Assembly: GCF_003070885.1 (NCBI RefSeq)
Contig: NZ_CP028913.1
Coordinates: forward strand, 434,001-498,000
Length of the DNA stretch: 64,000 nt
Direction: 5' to 3'
From: Agromyces badenianii
GTDB lineage: Bacteria; Actinomycetota; Actinomycetes; Actinomycetales; Microbacteriaceae
A program made the position numbers and the translations under genes. How positions within the stretch are numbered: the first letter of the stretch is position 1; every line of letters starts with the position of its first letter. Under the pieces are notes generated by a model that made no database searches, had not been told where the DNA came from, and saw nothing but the letters and a program-made list of their open reading frames with translations. Below, one piece after another: positions 7,939 to 19,869 of this stretch.

Positions 7939-8694
7939 ATGCCCGGCTCGCGACGCACCAGCGCTGACGACGCGCAGCAGGTGCGGGCCCGGCGGGCGCT
8001 CGGCGTCTTCCGGCTGCTGATCGCGGCACTCGAGATCGTCGCGCTGATCGGCAACTTCCAGTACGTGCTCGGCTTCCGGCTCTTCGCGACGGCCAATTTC
8101 TTCAGCTACTTCACCGTGCAGTCGGCCTTCGCGGCGGTCGTGACGCTCGGCATCGCGGCGGCGTTCGCGCTCTTCGCACCGCGCGACCCGGCTTGGCTCG
8201 GCATCATCCGCACCATGGTCACGGTGTACGTGCTCGTCTCGGGCATCGTGTTCGCGATCATCGTCGCGCAGGCCTCGACGCGCGACTACCGCATGGAGGT
8301 GCCGTGGTCGGACACCGTGCTGCACTTCGTGGTGCCGGCGCTCGCCGCGATCGCCTGGACGGCCGACAGCGTCATGGCCGTGAACCCTCGAGTGCCGTGG
8401 TCGACGATCGGCTGGGTGCTCGTGTTCCCCTCGATCTGGCTCGTCTACACGCTCTTCCGCGGCGCCGACATCGGCTGGTACCCGTACTTCTTCCTCGACG
8501 AGGCGCAGGTCGGCGGCATGCTCGGGGTCGGACTGTACTGCCTGCTCGTGCTCGTGATCTTCGTCGCCGTGACGGCCGGACTCGTCGCCGTCAACCGGGC
8601 GTTGTGGCGAAGGGCACGAGGGCGTCGAGCACGGCGGCCTGGAACGCCTGATCGTCGAGCGCCTCGAGTCGAATCGCCTGCGCTGCAGCGATGA
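7939..8694 (+). CDS. Pr6Pr-family-like integral membrane protein
   Basis: 251 residues with about six transmembrane segments. Characteristic blocks are FSYFTVQS, an extracellular-type DYRMEVPWSDTVLHFVVP, and YPYFFLDEAQVGGMLGVG. These match the bacterial Pr6Pr (FAR-17a/AIG1-like) membrane proteins, whose function is not established. The last 30 or so residues are an Arg-rich tail that lies over the 3' end of the opposite amine-oxidase gene (104-bp overlap), so this tail is probably a late extension after loss of an earlier stop. The start is fixed by a leaderless -10 box (7927-7932). Confidence 0.75.
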   Translation: MPGSRRTSADDAQQVRARRALGVFRLLIAALEIVALIGNFQYVLGFRLFATANFFSYFTVQSAFAAVVTLGIAAAFALFAPRDPAWLGIIRTMVTVYVLVSGIVFAIIVAQASTRDYRMEVPWSDTVLHFVVPALAAIAWTADSVMAVNPRVPWSTIGWVLVFPSIWLVYTLFRGADIGWYPYFFLDEAQVGGMLGVGLYCLLVLVIFVAVTAGLVAVNRALWRRARGRRARRPGTPDRRAPRVESPALQR

Positions 8695-10114
8695 TGCCGA
8701 CGAGGATCGGCTCGCCGGAGTCGATCCCGGCGTCGATCCAGGCGGCGACCGGCGAGAGCTCGCCGACGACCGTCAGCACGTTCGCAGCGGGGGCCGGCTC
8801 GGTGCCGGGTGCCACGCCCGGGGCATCCGCATCATCCGGGGCATCCGCATCATCCGGTGCATCCGCTCGCCAGAACGCCTCCTCGAACCGCAGCCACACG
8901 GTGTCGACGACCCCCATGCCGAGCAGCGAGATCGCGCGCTGGTGCATGAGCGGCAGCGCCGGGCTGAACCGCACGGTGTCGGTCTTCAGCACGCCGAGCG
9001 GCACGGTGACGATCGCCCGGTCGGCGTTGAGCGATTCGCCGGAGTCGAGCCGCAGGCTCACCCGCCGGTCGTTGTAGGCGATGCTCGTGACCACGCTCGA
9101 CACGGCGATGTCGAGCGGCTCGGCGAGCTCGTCGATGTAGTCGGAGAGCCGACCGGTGATGAGCTCGCCGAGATGTTCGAGACGCGTGGGGTCGTACTGG
9201 ATGGCAGAGATGACCGCGGTCGCCGCACCCGTCGACGGCGCGACGCCGCTGTTGATGGTGTGCGCGAGCCAGTCGGCGGGGCTCACGCCGTCGGCACCGG
9301 GTTCGGCCGGGAGGGGCGCCGCGCCCGAATCCGCGAGCGCCGCCGCGAGCGAGACGTCGCGGGGCTGGGTGCTCGCCCAGTGCTTCGCCGTCGCGATCGC
9401 CTCGGCGCCGGTCGGCGGGATCGGCACCCGAAGCCCGGCCGTGGTCGCCGCCGCGACCTCGGCGGCGAACGGCACGGTGTCGACGGATGCCTCGTGCAGC
9501 GCGTCGATCATGGCCTCATCGTCGCCCGTGAACACGGCGCCGAGCTCGACGGGGCGCTCGAACCCCGTCGCCGCCACGGAGTGGGCTCGCCCGCCCAGCC
9601 GATCGCGCGCTTCGATCACCACGACCTCGAACCCGGCGTCGACGAGATCTCGGGCCGCGGTGAGCCCGGCGACGCCGGCGCCGATGACGGCGACCCGTTC
9701 GCCGGCCTCGCCGAGCCGCGCGATGTCGGCGGCGGCGCGCGTTCCCGAGGCGCGAGCGCCTGCGAGGCTTCCCGGATTCTCGGCGTCGGTCGCCTCGCCG
9801 GCGATGACGAGACGACCGCCGACCGGCTGCCCGAGCGCCCGGCGCAGCTCGGGTGTGGTGCCGACGGCATCGAAGCTGAAGGCGCCGCGGGAGAACGGGT
9901 CGGCGCCCCACCGCGAGCGGCGCATCGCCGTCGGCGCCGGCACGCCGTTCGTCGGCGCGGGCGGCGCCGTGGTCGCGGGGGCCGAACTCGGCACCGGGCT
10001 CGGGCTCGGCTCGGGCCAGGTGCAACTCGCGAGCACGACCGTCGCGATGCCCGAGAGCGAGGCGGCGAGGAAGGTTCGCCGGGCCATGCCGCCCGGCGCT
10101 CCCCGTGATTCCAT
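8591..10114 (-). CDS. Tat-type lipoprotein FAD-dependent amine oxidase with circularly permuted domain order
   Basis: 507 residues. The start of the protein has a twin-arginine motif ARRTFLAAS and lipobox VLASC (Cys31), then a Pro/Ser/Thr linker. Residues 68-132 (RWGADPFSRGAFSF, RLVIAGEATDAENPGS, ARASGTRAAADI) are the block that normally ends flavin monoamine oxidases and closes over the flavin. It is followed, not preceded, by the FAD Rossmann motif VAVIGAGVAGLTAARDLVDA with EARDRLGGR (141-176). The protein ends at DALVPFATTPG, where a normal family member would begin the RWGxDPF block. A DAPDDADAPDDADAPG insert is encoded by GGCATCC repeats. A secreted flavin enzyme oxidising amines is likely. 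The start at 10114 is supported by a leaderless -10 box; ATG 10087 (MARRTF) is the alternative. Confidence 0.85.
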   Translation of the reverse strand: MESRGAPGGMARRTFLAASLSGIATVVLASCTWPEPSPSPVPSSAPATTAPPAPTNGVPAPTAMRRSRWGADPFSRGAFSFDAVGTTPELRRALGQPVGGRLVIAGEATDAENPGSLAGARASGTRAAADIARLGEAGERVAVIGAGVAGLTAARDLVDAGFEVVVIEARDRLGGRAHSVAATGFERPVELGAVFTGDDEAMIDALHEASVDTVPFAAEVAAATTAGLRVPIPPTGAEAIATAKHWASTQPRDVSLAAALADSGAAPLPAEPGADGVSPADWLAHTINSGVAPSTGAATAVISAIQYDPTRLEHLGELITGRLSDYIDELAEPLDIAVSSVVTSIAYNDRRVSLRLDSGESLNADRAIVTVPLGVLKTDTVRFSPALPLMHQRAISLLGMGVVDTVWLRFEEAFWRADAPDDADAPDDADAPGVAPGTEPAPAANVLTVVGELSPVAAWIDAGIDSGEPILVGIIAAAQAIRLEALDDQAFQAAVLDALVPFATTPG

Positions 10115-10144: not shown

Positions 10145-11350
10145 TCACCCGGTTCCCGGCGCGCCTGCCGCGCGGAAGGCGGCCGCGAAGCGGGGCAGGC
10201 TCGCCTCGATCGTCTCCATCGTCGCGGTCAGGCAGATGCGGAAGAACCCCGGGGTCTCGAACATGCGCCCGGGCAGCACGAGCACGCCCTCGCGGTCGAG
10301 CGCTGCGGCGAACGCGGCGTCGTCGGCGATCGGCGACTCGGGGAAGAGGTAGAACGTGGCCTCCGGCACCGTGACGCGGTACCCGATCTCCCTGAGGCCC
10401 GCGACCATGACGTCGCGCTTGCGCTGGAAGAGCGGGATGTCGAACTCCAACGTCTCGAGACGGGGCAGCGCGTACTGCATCGACGCGTTGGGGAAGAGCC
10501 ATCCACCGGTGATCTGGATCGCCTCGATCGCATCGCGGAGCGGCTCGCGGTCGGGCATCGTCGGGGGCACCGCGAGGTAGCCGATGCGCTCGCCCGGCGA
10601 GAGCAGGGTCTTGCCGTAGCTGTAGGCGAGGAAGCTCCAGGGGTAGAACTCGACCGGGCTGCGGAACCGAGCACCGTCGAACACGATGCGGTTGTAGGCC
10701 TCGTCGGAGATGAGGAAGATGCGCCGTCCGTTCCGGGTCGACGCCTCATCGAGCAGGGCGGCGAGGCGTTCGAGCGTCGACACTGGGTAGATGCGGCCGG
10801 TGGGGTTGTTCGGGCTGTTGACGATCACGATGCGGGTGCGCGGCGTGATGGCCGCTGCGATCGCATCGAGGTCGAGGTCGAACGTCGTGCGGTCGATCGA
10901 CACCTTCACCGGCAGCAGGCCCGCCTCGCGGATGAGTCCTTCGTACAGGAACCACGGCGGGAGGCTGTAGACGACCTCGTCGCCGGCGTCGCCGACGATC
11001 TTCAGGGCGGTCGAGATCGCCGCGAACCCGCCCGTGGTGAGGTGCACGTCGGCCGTCTCGAACGGGATGCCGACATGCCGTCGCAGTGCCTCGGTCGCGG
11101 CCGCGATCGCCGTCGCGTCGCCGAAGTTGTAGGCGAACCAGAGCTCGTGCTGCGGGATCAGCGAGTCGCGGAGGATCTCGACGTAGGCGCTCGACGGCGG
11201 GTCGTGCGGGTCGCCGAAGGTGAAGTCGAGCACGCCTGGTTCATGGCGTCGCCGCTCGTAGCCCGAGAGCCGGTAGAACTCGTAGAGCAGGTGGAACGGC
11301 GTCGCGTCTTGCACGTCCGCGACGCGATCGGAAGTGAGTCGGTCATCCAT
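10145..11350 (-). CDS. Pyridoxal-phosphate aminotransferase, class I/II
   Basis: 401 residues, fold type I. Visible blocks are LTTGGFAAISTALKIVGDAG, the substrate-face NSPNNPTG, ISDEAYNRIVFDG, and SYGKTLLSPGERIGYLAVP, in which the Lys forms the internal aldimine. The C-terminal FRICLTATMETIE carries the carboxylate-binding Arg. The reaction is transfer of an amino group from an amino acid to a 2-oxo acid; the substrate cannot be told. It lies 30 bases upstream of the amine-oxidase gene on the same strand, which has its own promoter. A hairpin separates it from the class III aminotransferase upstream. Confidence 0.88.
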   Translation of the reverse strand: MDDRLTSDRVADVQDATPFHLLYEFYRLSGYERRRHEPGVLDFTFGDPHDPPSSAYVEILRDSLIPQHELWFAYNFGDATAIAAATEALRRHVGIPFETADVHLTTGGFAAISTALKIVGDAGDEVVYSLPPWFLYEGLIREAGLLPVKVSIDRTTFDLDLDAIAAAITPRTRIVIVNSPNNPTGRIYPVSTLERLAALLDEASTRNGRRIFLISDEAYNRIVFDGARFRSPVEFYPWSFLAYSYGKTLLSPGERIGYLAVPPTMPDREPLRDAIEAIQITGGWLFPNASMQYALPRLETLEFDIPLFQRKRDVMVAGLREIGYRVTVPEATFYLFPESPIADDAAFAAALDREGVLVLPGRMFETPGFFRICLTATMETIEASLPRFAAAFRAAGAPGTG

Positions 11351-11418
11351 GAGCGCTTCCCTCGGGATCTGGGACGCTCCGTCGACACGGAGATCCCGTG
11401 AATGCCGCCATGGTACTC

Positions 11419-11470
11419 CGCAGCGGGGGCCCGCGCCTCGGGCAATTCCCGGACGCGGCCCCCGACTGCG
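11419..11470. terminator. Large hairpin downstream of the class III aminotransferase
   Basis: CGCAG-CGGGGGCC...GCG pairs with CGCGGCCCCCGACTGCG, with single-base bulges. A nested CGGG-CAATT-CCCG stem lies in the loop. It starts 16 bases beyond the stop of the minus-strand gene at 11486, so it can end the mmsA operon. Confidence 0.5.
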
Positions 11471-11485
11471 GTTCGCTCGGTGTCG

Positions 11486-12901
11486 CTACGCGGCGACGTG
11501 CCCATCGGCGATCGTGAGCGCCGCGTCGATGATGTCGAGCCCGCGCACGAGCTCGTCTTCGGTGATGACGAGCGGCGGTGCCACGTGCATGCGGTTGAAG
11601 TGCACGAACGGCCAGAGGCCGGCCTGCTTGCAGGCGGCGGCGACGGCGGCCATCGGCGCGGCATCCGCCCCGCTCGCATTGAACGGCACGAGGGGTTCGC
11701 GGGTCTCGGCGTCGCGCACGAGCTCGATCGCCCAGAAGAGCCCGCGACCGCGAACCTCGCCGACCGAGGGGTGCGTCGCCGCGATCTCGCGAAGCCGCGG
11801 CTCGACGACGCGCTCGCCGAGGTCGCGCACTCGCTCGAGGATGCCGTCGCGTTCGAACACCTCGAACGTCGCGACCCCGGCGGCGCAGGCGAGCGGATGT
11901 CCCGAATACGTGAGCCCGCCGGCGAACGCCACCGTGTCGAAGTGCGCGGCGATGCGCTGCGAGATGACGACGCCGCCGAGCGGCACGTAGCCCGAGTTCA
12001 CGCCCTTCGCGAAGGTGATCAGGTCGGGCACGACGTCGAAGGCGTTGACCGCGAACCATTCGCCGACCCGGCCGAAGCCGACCATGACCTCGTCGGCGAT
12101 GTAGACGATGCCGTAGCGGTCGCAGAGCTCGCGCACGCCGGCGAGGTAGCCGGGCGGCGGCACGAGCACGCCGTTGGTGCCGACGATCGTCTCGATGATG
12201 ATCGCCGCGATCGTGCCGGCGCCTTCGAGCGTGATGACCTGTTCGAGGTGGGCGAGCGCCCGCACGGTCTCCTGCTCGGCGGAGTCGGCGTGGAACGACG
12301 AACGGTACGGGTAGGGCCCGAGGAAGTGGGCGACGCTGCCGTCGCTCGGCTCGTTGGGCCAGCGTCGCGGGTCGCCCGTCAGCGAGATCGCGGTCGCCGT
12401 GCCGCCGTGGTAGCTGCGGTACATCGACAGCACCTTGCGTCGTCCGGTGACCGCGCGGGCGAGACGCACGGCGTACTCGTTGGCGTCGGCGCCGCCGTTG
12501 GTGAAGAACACCTTGTCGAGGTCGCCGGGTGCGACATCGGCGATGCGCCGGGCGAGTTCGCCGCGCACGTCGCTCGCCATCGAGGGCTGGATCGTCGCGA
12601 GCCGCCCGGCCTGCTGCTGGATCGCCGCGACGAGGTCGGGGTGCTGATGCCCGAGGTTCAGGTTCACGAGCTGGCTCGAGAAATCGAGGTAGGCGTTGCC
12701 CTGGTAGTCCCAGAACGTCGAGCCCCGGCCGGCCGCGATGGGCAGCGGGTCGATGAGCGCCTGCGCGCTCCACGAGTGGAACACATGGGCTCGGTCGTCG
12801 GCGCGCACCTGCGCCTCGGCAGCGGCATCGGGCAGCGGATGCCGCGTGCCGAAGCGGTCGGCGAAGACCGCTTCGGTTCCGGTGGTGATGGTGTCGGTCA
12901 T
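11486..12901 (-). CDS. Class III aminotransferase (omega-amino acid / aspartate aminotransferase family)
   Basis: 471 residues. Blocks: FWDYQGNAYLDFSSQLVNLN, KVFFTNGGADANEYAVRLAR, SMYRSYHGGTATAIS, EVMVGFGRVGEWFAVN, and LITFAKGVNSGYVPLGGVVI with the PLP Lys in FAKG. This is the beta-alanine/GABA:pyruvate or 2-oxoglutarate class. It makes a semialdehyde that the neighbouring acylating dehydrogenase can use (malonate semialdehyde from beta-alanine fits best). The ATG at 12901 has AAGGAGG about ten bases upstream. It lies 32 bases after mmsA in one operon under the divergent PucR regulator. Substrate is inferred. Confidence 0.88.
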   Translation of the reverse strand: MTDTITTGTEAVFADRFGTRHPLPDAAAEAQVRADDRAHVFHSWSAQALIDPLPIAAGRGSTFWDYQGNAYLDFSSQLVNLNLGHQHPDLVAAIQQQAGRLATIQPSMASDVRGELARRIADVAPGDLDKVFFTNGGADANEYAVRLARAVTGRRKVLSMYRSYHGGTATAISLTGDPRRWPNEPSDGSVAHFLGPYPYRSSFHADSAEQETVRALAHLEQVITLEGAGTIAAIIIETIVGTNGVLVPPPGYLAGVRELCDRYGIVYIADEVMVGFGRVGEWFAVNAFDVVPDLITFAKGVNSGYVPLGGVVISQRIAAHFDTVAFAGGLTYSGHPLACAAGVATFEVFERDGILERVRDLGERVVEPRLREIAATHPSVGEVRGRGLFWAIELVRDAETREPLVPFNASGADAAPMAAVAAACKQAGLWPFVHFNRMHVAPPLVITEDELVRGLDIIDAALTIADGHVAA

Positions 12902-12933
12902 GTCGGATGCCTCCTTCAAGTGGTTGCCGGGAC

Positions 12934-14499
12934 TCAGTGGTTCTGGGGGAAGCCCAAGTTGATGCCGCCGTGCGCGGCGTCGTTGCGCGTGGCCGGGTCG
13001 ATCCAGCGGCTGGTGACGGCCTTCTCGCGGGTGAAGAAATCGAAGCCGTGTGCGCCGTAGGCCTTCGCATCGCCGAACAGCGACTGCTTCCACCCGCCGA
13101 ACGAGTGGTAGGCGACGGGCACCGGAATCGGCACGTTGATGCCGATCATGCCGACCTGCACCTCGTTCTGGAAGCGGCGTGCGGCGCCGCCGTCGTTGGT
13201 GAAGATCGCGGTGCCGTTGCCGAACTGGCCCCCGTTGATGAGGTCGAGACCCTCGTCGTAGGTGCTCACGCGAACGACCGAGAGCACCGGGCCGAAGATC
13301 TCCTCCGTGTACGCCCGCGAGGTGGTGGGCACGCCGTCGATCAGGGTCGGACCGAAGAAGAAGCCGCTTTCGTGGTCGTCGACGGTGAACCCGCGGCCGT
13401 CGACCACGATCGTCGCCCCGTCTGCCTCGGCGATGTCGACGTAGGAGGCGACCTTGTCGCGGTGCGCGCCGGTGATGAGCGGGCCCATGTCGGGCTCGAC
13501 TCCGTCGACGCCTGCGCCGTTGCCGATCTTCAGCTTCGCGATGCGCTCGCTGATCTTGCCGATGAGCTCGTCGGCGACCGGCTCGACCGCGAGCACGACC
13601 GAGATCGCCATGCACCGCTCGCCGGCGGCGCCGTACCCGGCGTTCACCGCCTGGTCGGCGACGAGGTCGAGGTCGGCGTCGGGCAGCACGAGCATGTGGT
13701 TCTTGGCCCCGCCGAGCGCCTGAACGCGCTTGCCGTGCTTCGACGCGGTCTCGTAGATGTACTGGGCGATCGGGGTCGATCCGACGAACGAGATCGACTG
13801 CACCACCGGCGAGGTGAGGAGACCGTCGACGGCGAGCTTGTCACCCTGCAGCACGGTGAACACGCCGTCGGGCAGGCCGGCCTCCTTCCAGAGCTGGGCG
13901 AGCCAGAGCGCCGCCGAGGGGTCCTTCTCGCTCGGCTTCAAGACGACGGCGTTGCCGGCGGCGATCGCGATGGGGAAGAACCACATCGGAACCATGGCCG
14001 GGAAGTTGAACGGGCTGATGATGCCGACCACGCCGAGCGGCTGCTTCAGCGAGTACACGTCGATGCCGGTCGAGACGTTCTCGGAGAAGGCGCCCTTGAT
14101 CAGGTTCGGGAACCCGGTGGCGAGTTCGACCACCTCCTGGCCGCGCAGGATCTCGCCCATCGAGTCGGAGACGACCTTGCCGTGCTCGGCGGTGATGATG
14201 GCCGCGAGCTCGCCCTTGCGCGAGTTCAGCAGCTCGCGGAACGCGAACAGCACGTTCTGCCGCTTCGCGATCGAGTAGCCGCTCCACACCTCGAAGCCGG
14301 CCTGCGCAGACGCGATCGCCGCGTCGATCTCGGCCTGGTCGGCCAGCGCGACGTCGGCCTGCACGGCGCCGGTGGCGGGGTTGTACACCGGGGCCGTGCG
14401 GCCCGAGGCCGACGGGCGCAGTGCGCCGTCGACCCAGTGTCCGATGAGTGGCACACCGGGGGCCGATGCGGAAGGGGAAGCGGTCTCGGTGATGCTCAT
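12934..14499 (-). CDS. mmsA: CoA-acylating methylmalonate-semialdehyde dehydrogenase
   Basis: 521 residues. Aldehyde-dehydrogenase fold with the MmsA-specific blocks GVVGIISPFNFPAMVPMWFF, SISFVGSTPIAQYIYETASK, ALGGAKNHMLVLPDADLD, GYGAAGERCMAISV (catalytic Cys in ERCMA) and GQFGNGTAIFT. MmsA converts malonate or methylmalonate semialdehyde to acetyl- or propionyl-CoA with NAD and CoA, losing CO2. The true start is ATG 14499 with AAGGA upstream; the GTG at 14514 overlaps that ribosome site and is not used. First gene of an operon with the class III aminotransferase, divergent from pucR. Confidence 0.92.
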   Translation of the reverse strand: MSITETASPSASAPGVPLIGHWVDGALRPSASGRTAPVYNPATGAVQADVALADQAEIDAAIASAQAGFEVWSGYSIAKRQNVLFAFRELLNSRKGELAAIITAEHGKVVSDSMGEILRGQEVVELATGFPNLIKGAFSENVSTGIDVYSLKQPLGVVGIISPFNFPAMVPMWFFPIAIAAGNAVVLKPSEKDPSAALWLAQLWKEAGLPDGVFTVLQGDKLAVDGLLTSPVVQSISFVGSTPIAQYIYETASKHGKRVQALGGAKNHMLVLPDADLDLVADQAVNAGYGAAGERCMAISVVLAVEPVADELIGKISERIAKLKIGNGAGVDGVEPDMGPLITGAHRDKVASYVDIAEADGATIVVDGRGFTVDDHESGFFFGPTLIDGVPTTSRAYTEEIFGPVLSVVRVSTYDEGLDLINGGQFGNGTAIFTNDGGAARRFQNEVQVGMIGINVPIPVPVAYHSFGGWKQSLFGDAKAYGAHGFDFFTREKAVTSRWIDPATRNDAAHGGINLGFPQNH

Positions 14500-14546
14500 T
14501 GGCAGTTCCTTCACTGGATGTGCGGCGGTCGCGTCGGTGTCGAGAT

Positions 14547-14575
14547 CGGACAGAATGACCGAAGTCGGCTAGGCT
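14547..14575 (+). promoter_or_regulatory. Putative promoter of the PucR-type gene
   Basis: CGGACA (14547-14552), 17 bases, TAGGCT (14570-14575), about 40 bases before the GTG start. It lies in the 115-bp divergent region shared with mmsA. Confidence 0.4.
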
Positions 14576-14614
14576 TCGATTTCCGAGTGTGACAGAGGAA
14601 GAAGGGCGATTCCG

Positions 14615-16279
14615 GTGGCAGATCGTCGCGAAGATGACGTGAACCAGACGAACCGTCCGGCGCTCGATCCGGCCGATGACGGACTCCCGACCGTGCGCGA
14701 GATCCTGACGATCCCGGCCGTCGCGCAGGGGCTGCCCGAGGTGCTCTCCGGTGGTGATGCCCTCGATGCGCACGTGCGCTGGGCCCACGTCTCCGACAGT
14801 GCGGGCGTCGCCCGTCTGCTCAACGGCGGCGAGCTGCTGCTCACCACGGGATCGGGCTGGCCCACGGATCCGGCCGAGCTGACCTCGTTCATCGCCGGCC
14901 TCGTCGACGCGGGCCTGGCCGGCCTCGTGCTCGAGCTCGGCGTGCACTATCGGTACGTGCCGGCGGTCGTCGAATCGGCGGCACGCGAGCACGGGCTCGC
15001 CCTCGTCGCCCTGCACCGCGAGGTGAAGTTCGTCGCCCTCACCGAGGCCGTGCACGGTCGCATCATCTCGGAGCAGACGGCGGCGCTGCGCGCCCGCGAC
15101 GAGGTGCGCGAGCGGTTCACGGCGCTCGCCCTGCGCGGGTCGCCGCCCGACTTCATCGTGGAGCAGCTGGCGCAGACCCTCGGTGCTGCCGTCGTGCTCG
15201 AGAACCTCGCCCACGAGGTCGTGGCCGCCGAGGTGCCGCTCGCCGCCGAAGGGGAGCTCTTCACGGGGTGGGAGGTGCGGTCGCGCCGCGCGCATCGGCA
15301 GCACGAGCAGCAGCGACGGGGACTCGGCGTCGCGCCGGACGAGTGGCTCATCGTGCCGGTCGAGGCCAGGGGCATCCGATGGGGCCATCTCATCGCCCTG
15401 CCGGGGCCGGCGCACCCGGCGGGGCGCACGAGCGTGCTCGAGCAGGGCGCGATCGCGCTCGCGCTGGGCCGGCTCGCCGACGGGGCTGTCGACGAGTGGG
15501 TACGCCTCGGTCGGCAGCGCCTCGTCGACGGCTTGCTCGACGGCAGGTTCGCGGGCCTCGCCGCAGCGTCGTCACGCGTCGAGGCGGCCGGGCTGCCGAT
15601 CGACGGCGCGCGGCTCTTCGGGGTCGTCGTGACGGGGGCCCCGGTCGCGCCCGAGGCAGCGGATGCCGCGGCTCGCGGGCTCGGCGGGCGGGCCATCGCC
15701 GGCGGCATCCGCGACGGTGCCTTCGCCGTGCCGGCGACGCTCATGCTCCTCTCGCTGCCGGCCTCGCGAGCGTTCGACGACGCCACGGCGCGACGGTTCG
15801 CCCGCGCCCTCGTCGCGGTCGACTCCGCGGTGCTCGATAGGATCGTGCTGTCGGTCGGCTCCGAGGCAGACGGCCTCAATGCCCTGCTCGGCTCGGCGCA
15901 GGAGGCGATCGACCTGGCTCGCGGTCCGGCGCGCGCGACCCGCGGCCCCGTCGTGCAACGATCCGACGATCGACCCCTCATGCGGCTCGTCACCTCGCTG
16001 CGCGACGACCACCGCCTGCTCGAGCACGGCGAGCGCATGCTCGAGCCGCTCATCGACTACGACCTCGCGCGCCGGGGCGATCTGCTCGACGTGCTCGGTG
16101 CGGTGCTCGCGCATCCGGGCAATCGCACGGCCGCGGCATCCGCTTCGCACCTCTCTCGTTCGGTCTTCTATCAGCGGCTCGGCCTCATCGGCGACCTGCT
16201 CGGCACCGACCTCGACGACGGCGAGACCCTCACGGCCCTGCACCTGGCGCTCCTCGTGCGGCGGAGCGTCGTGCGGTAG
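14615..16279 (+). CDS. PucR-family transcriptional regulator
   Basis: 554 residues. The N-terminal PucR ligand domain (about 25-150: TVREILTIPAVAQGLPEVLSG, LLNGGELLLTTGSGW, GLAGLVLELG) is followed by a GGDEF-like CdaR middle region and a C-terminal PucR helix-turn-helix (HPGNRTAAASASHLSRSVFY, about 505-525). Members activate purine, amino-acid or polyamine catabolic genes. It is divergent from the mmsA-aminotransferase operon and is its likely regulator. GTG start at 14615 follows GAAGAAGGG. The effector is unknown; the enzyme context suggests an omega-amino acid or its semialdehyde. Confidence 0.9.
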   Translation: MADRREDDVNQTNRPALDPADDGLPTVREILTIPAVAQGLPEVLSGGDALDAHVRWAHVSDSAGVARLLNGGELLLTTGSGWPTDPAELTSFIAGLVDAGLAGLVLELGVHYRYVPAVVESAAREHGLALVALHREVKFVALTEAVHGRIISEQTAALRARDEVRERFTALALRGSPPDFIVEQLAQTLGAAVVLENLAHEVVAAEVPLAAEGELFTGWEVRSRRAHRQHEQQRRGLGVAPDEWLIVPVEARGIRWGHLIALPGPAHPAGRTSVLEQGAIALALGRLADGAVDEWVRLGRQRLVDGLLDGRFAGLAAASSRVEAAGLPIDGARLFGVVVTGAPVAPEAADAAARGLGGRAIAGGIRDGAFAVPATLMLLSLPASRAFDDATARRFARALVAVDSAVLDRIVLSVGSEADGLNALLGSAQEAIDLARGPARATRGPVVQRSDDRPLMRLVTSLRDDHRLLEHGERMLEPLIDYDLARRGDLLDVLGAVLAHPGNRTAAASASHLSRSVFYQRLGLIGDLLGTDLDDGETLTALHLALLVRRSVVR

Positions 16280-18327: not shown

Positions 18328-18350
18328 CGTGAGCACGCTACTCGCTCACG
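18328..18350. terminator. Small hairpin between convergent genes
   Basis: CGTGAGC-N9-GCTCACG lies between the lipoprotein (+) and the FAD oxidoreductase (-) and overlaps the last codons of the latter. Confidence 0.35.
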
Positions 18351-19794
18351 AGTCGAACCCCAGTCCGAGGGCGTCGAGGGTCTTCAGCAGCAGGTTGCGC
18401 CTGCCGCGGTTGTGGTCGGCGCGGTCGAGCGACCAGCGCGTCGCGTTGATGCCGATCGATGCGGCGGGCTCGGGCGGGAAGGGCAGCGGGCGCTTGCGCA
18501 CCATCTCGAGCGAGGTGCGCTCGTTGTCGCGGCCCTCGAGCAGGTCGAGCATGACCTCGGCCGCGAATCGGGTCGATCCGACGCCGAGCCCCGTGAACCC
18601 TGCCGCGTAGGCGACGCGGTCGTCGCGCGCGGTGCCGAAGAACGCCGTGAACTGCGTGCTCGTGTCGATCGCACCCGCCCACTGGTGGCTGAACCGCAGG
18701 CCCTCGAGCTGCGGGAAGGTCGTGAAGAAGTGGCTCGCGAGCCGCTGCCAGGTCTCGGGGCGGTTCTCGTACTCCGAACGCACCTTGCGGCCGTAGTGGT
18801 AGATCGCGTCGTACCCGCCGAACAGGATGCGGTGGTCTTTCGAGAGTCGGTAGTAGTGGAACTGGTTCGCCAGGTCGCCGATGCCCTGGCGATCGCCCCA
18901 GCCGATGTCGGCGAGCTGCCGTGGCGAGAGCGGCTCGGTCATGAGCACGTAGTCGTAGACCGGCACGGTCATCAGGCGATTGCGCTTCACGAGCGACGGG
19001 AAGACGTTCGTCGCGAGCACGGCGCGCTCCGCGTCGACCCTGCCGTCGTCGGTGATCATCGAGACGGCACCGGTCGAACCCGGGGTGTCGAGCCGCTTCA
19101 CGGGGGAGTGCTCGAAGATCTCGACGCCGAGCTCTTCGGCGACCCGCGCGAGCTCCGACGCCAGGCGTGCCGGGTGCAGCATGCCGTTCGTGCGTTGCTC
19201 CCAGACCGCGGCGAGGTACGTCGGGGAGGCGACGGCCGCCTGCGCCTCGTGCTCGTCGAGGTAGACGACGCCTTCCTCGCCGCGTTCCGTCGCCTCTGCG
19301 TGCCACTCGCGCAACCACTCCACCTGGTGCTCTTCGACCGCCGGCGCCAGCTGGCCCGTGCGTTCGAAGTGGAAGTCCATGCCGTAGTCGGCCTCTGCCG
19401 CCTCGATCGCGTCGAGATTCGCCAGGCCGAGCCGGTCGAGCGTCGCCATCTCCTTCGGCCAGCGCGCCATGCCGTTCTCTTGCCCGTGCGTGAGGCTCGC
19501 CTCGCAGAAGCCGCCGTTGCGCCCGGACGCCGCCCAGCCGATCGACTTCGCCTCGACGAGCACGACTCGGGCGTTCGGATTGCGGCGCTTGGCGAGCACC
19601 GCGCTCCAGAGGCCGGTGTAGCCGCCGCCGACGATGACGAGGTCGGCGACACGGTGGCCCGCGAGCTTCGGACGCCCGCCCACTGCTCCCGCGGGCAGGT
19701 CGTCGAGCCAGAACACCGACCGCGCCGTGCGCTCGAGCGAATGGCTGACGACGGATGCCGGTGGCCGGCGTCGTTCGAAGACGGTCGTTCCCAC
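18346..19794 (-). CDS. FAD-dependent amine/amino-acid oxidase (DAO family, PuuB-like)
   Basis: 482 residues. FAD-binding motif VADLVIVGGGYTGLWSAVLA (about 50-70), then EAKSIGWAASGRNGGF typical of DadA/gamma-glutamylputrescine oxidase enzymes, DYVLMTEPLSPRQL and the C-terminal GAIDTSTQFTAFFG with AAGFTGLGVGSTR closing the flavin site. The reaction is oxidation of a primary or secondary amine to aldehyde or ketone with H2O2 release. Start: GTG 19794 has GGAG eight bases upstream; GTG 19803, three codons earlier, overlaps that site and is less likely. The nearby aminotransferase/MmsA operon is consistent with polyamine or omega-amino acid use. Substrate is not proven. Confidence 0.83.
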   Translation of the reverse strand: MGTTVFERRRPPASVVSHSLERTARSVFWLDDLPAGAVGGRPKLAGHRVADLVIVGGGYTGLWSAVLAKRRNPNARVVLVEAKSIGWAASGRNGGFCEASLTHGQENGMARWPKEMATLDRLGLANLDAIEAAEADYGMDFHFERTGQLAPAVEEHQVEWLREWHAEATERGEEGVVYLDEHEAQAAVASPTYLAAVWEQRTNGMLHPARLASELARVAEELGVEIFEHSPVKRLDTPGSTGAVSMITDDGRVDAERAVLATNVFPSLVKRNRLMTVPVYDYVLMTEPLSPRQLADIGWGDRQGIGDLANQFHYYRLSKDHRILFGGYDAIYHYGRKVRSEYENRPETWQRLASHFFTTFPQLEGLRFSHQWAGAIDTSTQFTAFFGTARDDRVAYAAGFTGLGVGSTRFAAEVMLDLLEGRDNERTSLEMVRKRPLPFPPEPAASIGINATRWSLDRADHNRGRRNLLLKTLDALGLGFDS

Positions 19795-19869
19795 GGGGAT
19801 CACTCCGATGCGGTTGTGGTGGTCCCATCCTGCCGCGCAGGCATCGGCCGCCGCCAGAGGCGCCGCGTC

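Follow-up and report, generated by a model that had tools for sequence, protein, structure and literature searches.

A flavin amine oxidase of Agromyces badenianii with its closing segment ahead of the FAD-binding motif: strong support for a natural circular permutation

Flavin amine oxidases comprise drug targets and well-studied enzymes, among them MAO-A/B, LSD1 and the polyamine oxidases. In this study we considered a member of this family encoded in a stretch of 64,000 nucleotides from Agromyces badenianii (contig NZ_CP028913.1, positions 434,001 to 498,000; hereafter the window), whose genome is a single contig of 3.05 Mb. The closest solved structures to this window protein by sequence and fold are the amine oxidase domains of LSD1 and LSD2 (KDM1A and KDM1B), with which its flavin adenine dinucleotide (FAD) motifs and the Lys of its GVLK motif align. 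Different from LSD1 and LSD2, the window protein is bacterial, has neither a tower nor a SWIRM domain, carries an export signal, presents an Asn at the position aligned with LSD1 Tyr761 and holds the last segment of the chain elsewhere. The polyamine oxidases (maize PAO, 1b37; murine PAOX, 5lae; spermine oxidase, 7oxl) have, unlike the window protein, the canonical order. Bacterial oxidases of canonical order such as P0212, P0220 and P0234, which are among the nearest canonical sequences found, share with it a twin arginine (RR) before the Rossmann motif but differ in having that segment, here called the block, at the C terminus. The closest named proteins among the matches listed are those of Agromyces hippuratus and A. 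cerinus, with 76% identity. Naturally circularly permuted enzymes have been described among the DNA and RNA methyltransferases (PMC1282579); the event is of the same kind, with fold and cofactor site kept and the chain cut elsewhere, but fold and family are unrelated to those of the flavin amine oxidases.

According to the sequence alignments, the FAD Rossmann motif of the window protein comes after a segment of about 79 residues that in these enzymes usually forms the end of the chain. The chain thus runs from the signal through the C-terminal block and the FAD Rossmann motif to the core and the stop (Table 1). Although the usual linear order of the family was not found, membership in PF01593 stands by homology (171.7 bits for the whole protein against a curated cut-off of 19.8), linear order playing no part in the Pfam cut-off. 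In particular, residues 148 to 499 correspond to profile positions 1 to 361 of 443, and a further stretch was matched at a place that the search did not report; since the match stops at position 361, the last 80 or so profile positions are missing at the C terminus of the protein. A phmmer search of the PDB aligned residues 55 to 132 with residues 697 to 774 of LSD2, which belong to its terminal part, and residues 139 to 177 and 318 to 418 with successive parts of LSD2 upstream of residue 697. Furthermore, when a profile of 77 permuted proteins was compared with human LSD2, its positions 126 to 466 (core) covered LSD2 residues 334 to 696 and its positions 45 to 123 (block) covered residues 697 to 775, so that the two pieces meet exactly, with neither gap nor overlap. 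The C-terminal FAD-binding segment (RW...GE...GA..SG) is thus present in the window protein, at residues 58 to 136, with RWGADPF starting at residue 68, IAGEAT at 104 and GTRAAADI at 124.

The first-pass annotation, made from the DNA letters, had proposed that this block lies ahead of the GAGVAG motif and that the chain stops where the block would usually begin; the Pfam, phmmer and LSD2 profile comparisons agree with both statements. It had placed the block at residues 68 to 132, which is right as to the position before the Rossmann motif and too narrow as to the limits, better set at about 58 to 136. The N-terminal block finds its counterpart at the end of canonical oxidases and not elsewhere, and a second block was seen in none of 337 proteins, nor among 406 permuted and 35 canonical rows. 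In the permuted proteins the Gly-Glu pair of the block lies a median of 39 residues (5 to 95%, 37 to 50) before the Rossmann GxGxxG motif, and a median of 3 residues follow the core before the chain stops. None of the best 25 of 140 NCBIfam matches of the oxidase reached its cut-off. No permuted solved structure was seen among the 60 PDB sequences listed out of the 94 that matched, because the best stretch of each starts at profile position 125 or later. The annotation knew of no described permuted member, and we found none in the open-access literature searched, the search leaving most subscription papers, as well as structure-classification databases, outside its range.

The permuted order is widespread. 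Each protein search listed its best 120 matches: 119 of the 121 nearest proteins, the window protein included, share the order, and the other two are fragments that start inside the chain and hold no block. A second search gave 108 permuted and 12 canonical proteins out of 120, all 105 new matches of a further search were permuted, and the distinct core sequences numbered 381 permuted and 35 canonical. Within the genus Agromyces, 57 of 60 genomes have a match at an E value of 5e-62 or better, the remaining three (G010, G016 and G050) matching only at 2.5e-11 or worse, and the 30 genus loci and 26 further loci of the family search that were taken for reading are all permuted. The annotation had suggested looking for the order in other Microbacteriaceae. 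In the family, 110 of 299 genomes, in 33 of 85 genera, match at an E value of 1e-20; 100 of the 110 have a collinear match that starts at query residues 1 to 11 and spans the block and part of the core, whereas in the other 10 the match is confined to the core. Canonical-order oxidases also occur in Microbacteriaceae, for example L088, L103 and, within the genome of the window itself, L002.

Outside the family, four permuted loci (L072, L073, L075 and L087) come from further families of the class and four (L094, L095, L096 and L101) from further classes of the phylum. Of 296 genomes sampled evenly across the phylum, at least 8 have the permuted order, four of them from Microbacteriaceae, a lower bound since scoring covered the 5 best candidates of each genome. 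Named sources in Actinomycetota include Euzebya rosea (Nitriliruptoria) and records of Acidimicrobiia, Ilumatobacter and Iamia; the order also reaches named Pseudomonadota, and other permuted records are labelled Granulosicoccus (Gammaproteobacteria), Hyphobacterium (Alphaproteobacteria), Maritalea and Pikeienuella, and a metagenome bin labelled Nonlabens is listed as permuted as well, on which we do not rely. The database names of permuted proteins are flavin monoamine oxidase family protein, FAD-dependent oxidoreductase, polyamine oxidase and hypothetical protein. We could also notice a permuted subgroup (P0126, P0127, P0239, L087 and similar ones) often of about 400 to 430 amino acids, with the middle of the core shortened.

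Two AlphaFold models retain the LSD/PAO core fold. In the model of the window protein, the mean predicted local distance difference test score (pLDDT) per ten residues is at least 94 from residue 61 onward, except for 84 at residues 71 to 80. The chain is predicted to fold still as the same flavoenzyme, and the former C-terminal helix would run through a short linker into the first Rossmann strand. Matches in a viral structure library were distant canonical-type amine oxidases and other flavoproteins. Taken together, sequence, distribution and structure prediction strongly support the circular permutation of the window protein, bearing out what had been proposed from the letters.

Residue and signal counts were made on 301 permuted rows (155 of an Agromyces group, 29 of other Microbacteriaceae and 117 others) and 35 canonical rows, with groups set by search origin, rows not dereplicated and many of them metagenomic. 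Glu107, Trp69, Gly145 and Arg176, the last within the GGR FAD-binding motif (residues 174 to 176), are identical in all 301 permuted and 35 canonical rows, and Gly106-Glu107 is invariant in the alignment of 77 rows. In LSD1 (Lys661) and the polyamine oxidases a lysine holds a water molecule at flavin N5; it aligns with Lys377 of the window protein, and the residue there varies in the relatives, a Lys occupying this position in 116 of 155 rows of the Agromyces group, 15 of 29 of other Microbacteriaceae, 48 of 117 others and 23 of 35 canonical rows. The aromatic cage residue that the C-terminal segment contributes, Tyr761 in LSD1, was not found, Asn113 standing at the aligned position; canonical rows are not uniform at this position, and F or Y occurs there in 57 of the 117 permuted rows from elsewhere. 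Moreover, the Trp position of the ELGAxW motif holds F, L, V or I throughout the Agromyces group (155 rows) but a Trp in 116 of the 117 others. It follows that the window's branch keeps the flavin chemistry site with a remodelled pocket. We infer an exported enzyme that depends on FAD and acts, as an oxidase or a dehydrogenase, on an amine-type substrate.

As to export, the annotation had read a twin-arginine translocation (Tat)-type lipoprotein signal at the N terminus. At the motif level the window protein does present an RR motif (residues 12 and 13), a hydrophobic stretch and a lipobox (LASC) with its Cys31, and R12, R13, F15 and C31 are invariant in the 77 rows. By regular expression, RR plus lipobox occurs in 149 of 155 rows of the Agromyces group, 28 of 29 of other Microbacteriaceae and 72 of 117 others, with RR alone in 19 more of the latter. 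As the window's branch conserves both elements, its members are probably exported by the Tat route and anchored by a lipid, judging from motifs. The oxidase would be exported by that route already folded and with its FAD, would be lipid-anchored at Cys31 and would act extracytoplasmically on an amine-type substrate, with Lys377 beside flavin N5. The further suggestion that the permutation serves to anchor the protein in the membrane next to the flavin-capping segment is unsupported: RR stands ahead of the Rossmann motif in 23 of the 35 canonical-order relatives (16 with RR alone and 7 with RR and lipobox, again by regular expression), so export and anchoring need no permutation.

Table 1. Features of the permuted oxidase gene and its neighbours, in window positions.
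Feature	Position	Strand	Basis
Permuted flavin amine oxidase gene, 507 aa + stop, ATG start	8591..10114	-	Open reading frame, PF01593
Residues 1-31, Tat-lipoprotein-like signal: RR 12-13, lipobox LASC, Cys31	10022..10114	-	Sequence; 77-row alignment
Residues 32-57, Pro/Ser/Thr-rich linker, predicted confidence mostly low	9944..10021	-	Sequence, AlphaFold model
Residues 58-136, block, homologous to the last segment of canonical-order flavin amine oxidases	9707..9943	-	LSD2 alignments
Residues 106-107, Gly-Glu of C-terminal FAD motif	9794..9799	-	Invariant in 77 rows
Asn113, aligned position of LSD1 Tyr761	9776..9778	-	Alignment counts
Residues 139-507, FAD Rossmann motif and substrate domain; chain stops where the block would usually start	8594..9700	-	
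Residues 145-150, GAGVAG dinucleotide-binding motif	9665..9682	-	Sequence
Lys377 in GVLK, aligned with flavin-N5 lysine	8984..8986	-	Alignment
Pr6Pr family membrane protein gene, convergent, 104-bp overlap with oxidase gene	7939..8694	+	NF038065, 107.7 bits vs cut-off 30
Class I/II aminotransferase, 30 bp upstream of oxidase gene	10145..11350	-	PF00155
Class III aminotransferase	11486..12865	-	PF00202; NF004718 above cut-off
CoA-acylating methylmalonate-semialdehyde dehydrogenase	12934..14514	-	TIGR01722 above cut-off; PF00171

As to the neighbourhood of the gene, 64 distinct Microbacteriaceae genomes were read as permuted loci, and in 62 of them a profile search revealed the Pr6Pr gene downstream of the oxidase and tail-to-tail with it; in one of the two exceptions the locus ends 29 bases past the oxidase gene. 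The overlap of the two genes is 104 bases in most Agromyces loci, and at L107 the permuted oxidase is flanked on both sides by Pr6Pr-like genes. No Pr6Pr gene was found by the permuted loci outside the family (0 of 8, mostly 0.4 to 1.5 kb of downstream sequence, five also with 5.6 to 6.7 kb) or by canonical loci (0 of 24, again mostly 0.4 to 1.5 kb downstream), and no paper naming Pr6Pr was found in the open-access literature searched.

On the other side, positions 10145 to 16279 hold two aminotransferases, the methylmalonate-semialdehyde dehydrogenase and a divergent PucR-type regulator, which together with the oxidase gene at its end look like a cluster for amine or amino-acid breakdown. Farther on (18346 to 19803, minus strand) lies a DAO-family FAD oxidoreductase, whose best NCBIfam match, the aminophosphonate oxidoreductase family TIGR03329, is below its cut-off. 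We clustered 23 neighbourhoods from home-made gene calls, the oxidase itself being called in 22. The class III aminotransferase turned up in no neighbourhood other than those of Agromyces. L105 and L121 also have aldehyde dehydrogenase-like genes, and L105 a class I aminotransferase, all differently arranged. The idea of a conserved operon that would indicate the substrate was thus discarded, as the aminotransferase and dehydrogenase arrangement is not common to the other genera sampled and Pr6Pr alone recurs widely.

We favour, with a probability of roughly 85%, the reading that the window protein is a permutant of the flavin amine oxidase fold, on its LSD/PAO side, with the same fold predicted, a function that would follow Tat export and an origin by duplication and deletion. 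An in-frame tandem duplication inside the gene of a Tat-exported oxidase would have given the arrangement signal-core-block-core-block, and loss of the first core and of the last block would then give signal-block-core with the original signal kept, an event that would have taken place once or a few times, long ago. Chance or an artefact, be it a sequencing or assembly rearrangement or a frameshift masking a canonical C terminus, is excluded, because the same order recurs in hundreds of independent sequences; moreover, the best-matching frames of the relatives listed at high score have no stops within them, and the genome is a single contig. Several results nevertheless weigh against parts of the favoured reading. 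The two-block intermediate of the duplication was not found among the best 120 matches of each protein search; the support for the block lying at its canonical place in space (high pLDDT, and a predicted template modelling score close to the ordered fraction) comes from confidence scores, not coordinates; and the regular expressions gave no RR motif for 26 of the 117 permuted rows from elsewhere, several of them short or cut at the start. Furthermore, the catalytic lysine is replaced by Q in 14 of the 29 rows of other Microbacteriaceae and by residues other than K in 69 of the 117 others, and none of F, Y or W is among the residues listed at the cage position for the Agromyces group (154 of 155 rows). 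Finally, the best tree needs five changes of order, none of 200 bootstrap trees (0%) needs a single one, and the nearest canonical row is the same by core and by block in 6 of 94 permuted rows.

These last results bear on whether the order arose by several independent permutations, or by fusion of the 3' end of a second oxidase before an oxidase that then lost its own end, since several origins or reversals are possible on such a tree and the block need not share the ancestor of the core. A first FastTree pass intermingled canonical and permuted rows; in a quick tree, made with 76 of the 118 rows kept after dereplication, the subgroup of L072, L073, L075 and P0230 clusters with canonical actinobacterial rows; and the careful tree, built on 74 rows without two long-branch canonical ones (L091 and L100), has good support at 23 of its 71 inner branches. 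However, forcing a single permuted clade costs 16 log units and is not rejected (approximately unbiased test, p = 0.311), and cut points and short linker are alike in the rows examined. Core and block distances also correlate across the 94 permuted rows (Mantel r 0.69, with 0 of 500 shuffles as high), which bears on inheritance after the event and not on the source. Despite the five changes and the 6 of 94 agreement, one origin is therefore possible and parsimonious, and we regard several origins or a fusion as unlikely. Somewhat less improbable, though still doubtful, is that the fold was kept in a protein that is no amine oxidase, such as a surface FAD-binding dehydrogenase, a sensor or an inactive relative, perhaps acting with Pr6Pr. 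The Q or R found in place of Lys377 in many relatives, the non-aromatic cage position and the lost Trp of ELGAxW in the Agromyces group would fit it, as would Pr6Pr being the sole widely conserved neighbour; yet the window protein retains the lysine and the tested FAD-contacting residues, the lysine is also missing in 12 of 35 canonical rows, and no Pr6Pr gene was found at the 8 permuted loci outside the family. Returning to the permutant that we favour, it is possible to hypothesize, at a little less than even odds, a large permuted branch of the MAO/PAO/LSD fold, in at least two phyla, derived from one ancient event in a Tat-exported ancestor, catalytically competent, with the flavin-capping segment made first and maybe paired with Pr6Pr in Microbacteriaceae.

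A natural permutant kept in at least two phyla would mean that the flavin amine oxidase fold tolerates cutting and rejoining of its chain, and a permuted oxidase would give enzyme engineers alternative termini ready-made. Automatic annotation conceals this structural class behind everyday labels, 'flavin monoamine oxidase family protein' being one. These proteins would offer a tractable case for learning how natural circular permutation arises and whether it alters the folding or the export of a Tat substrate loaded with its cofactor.
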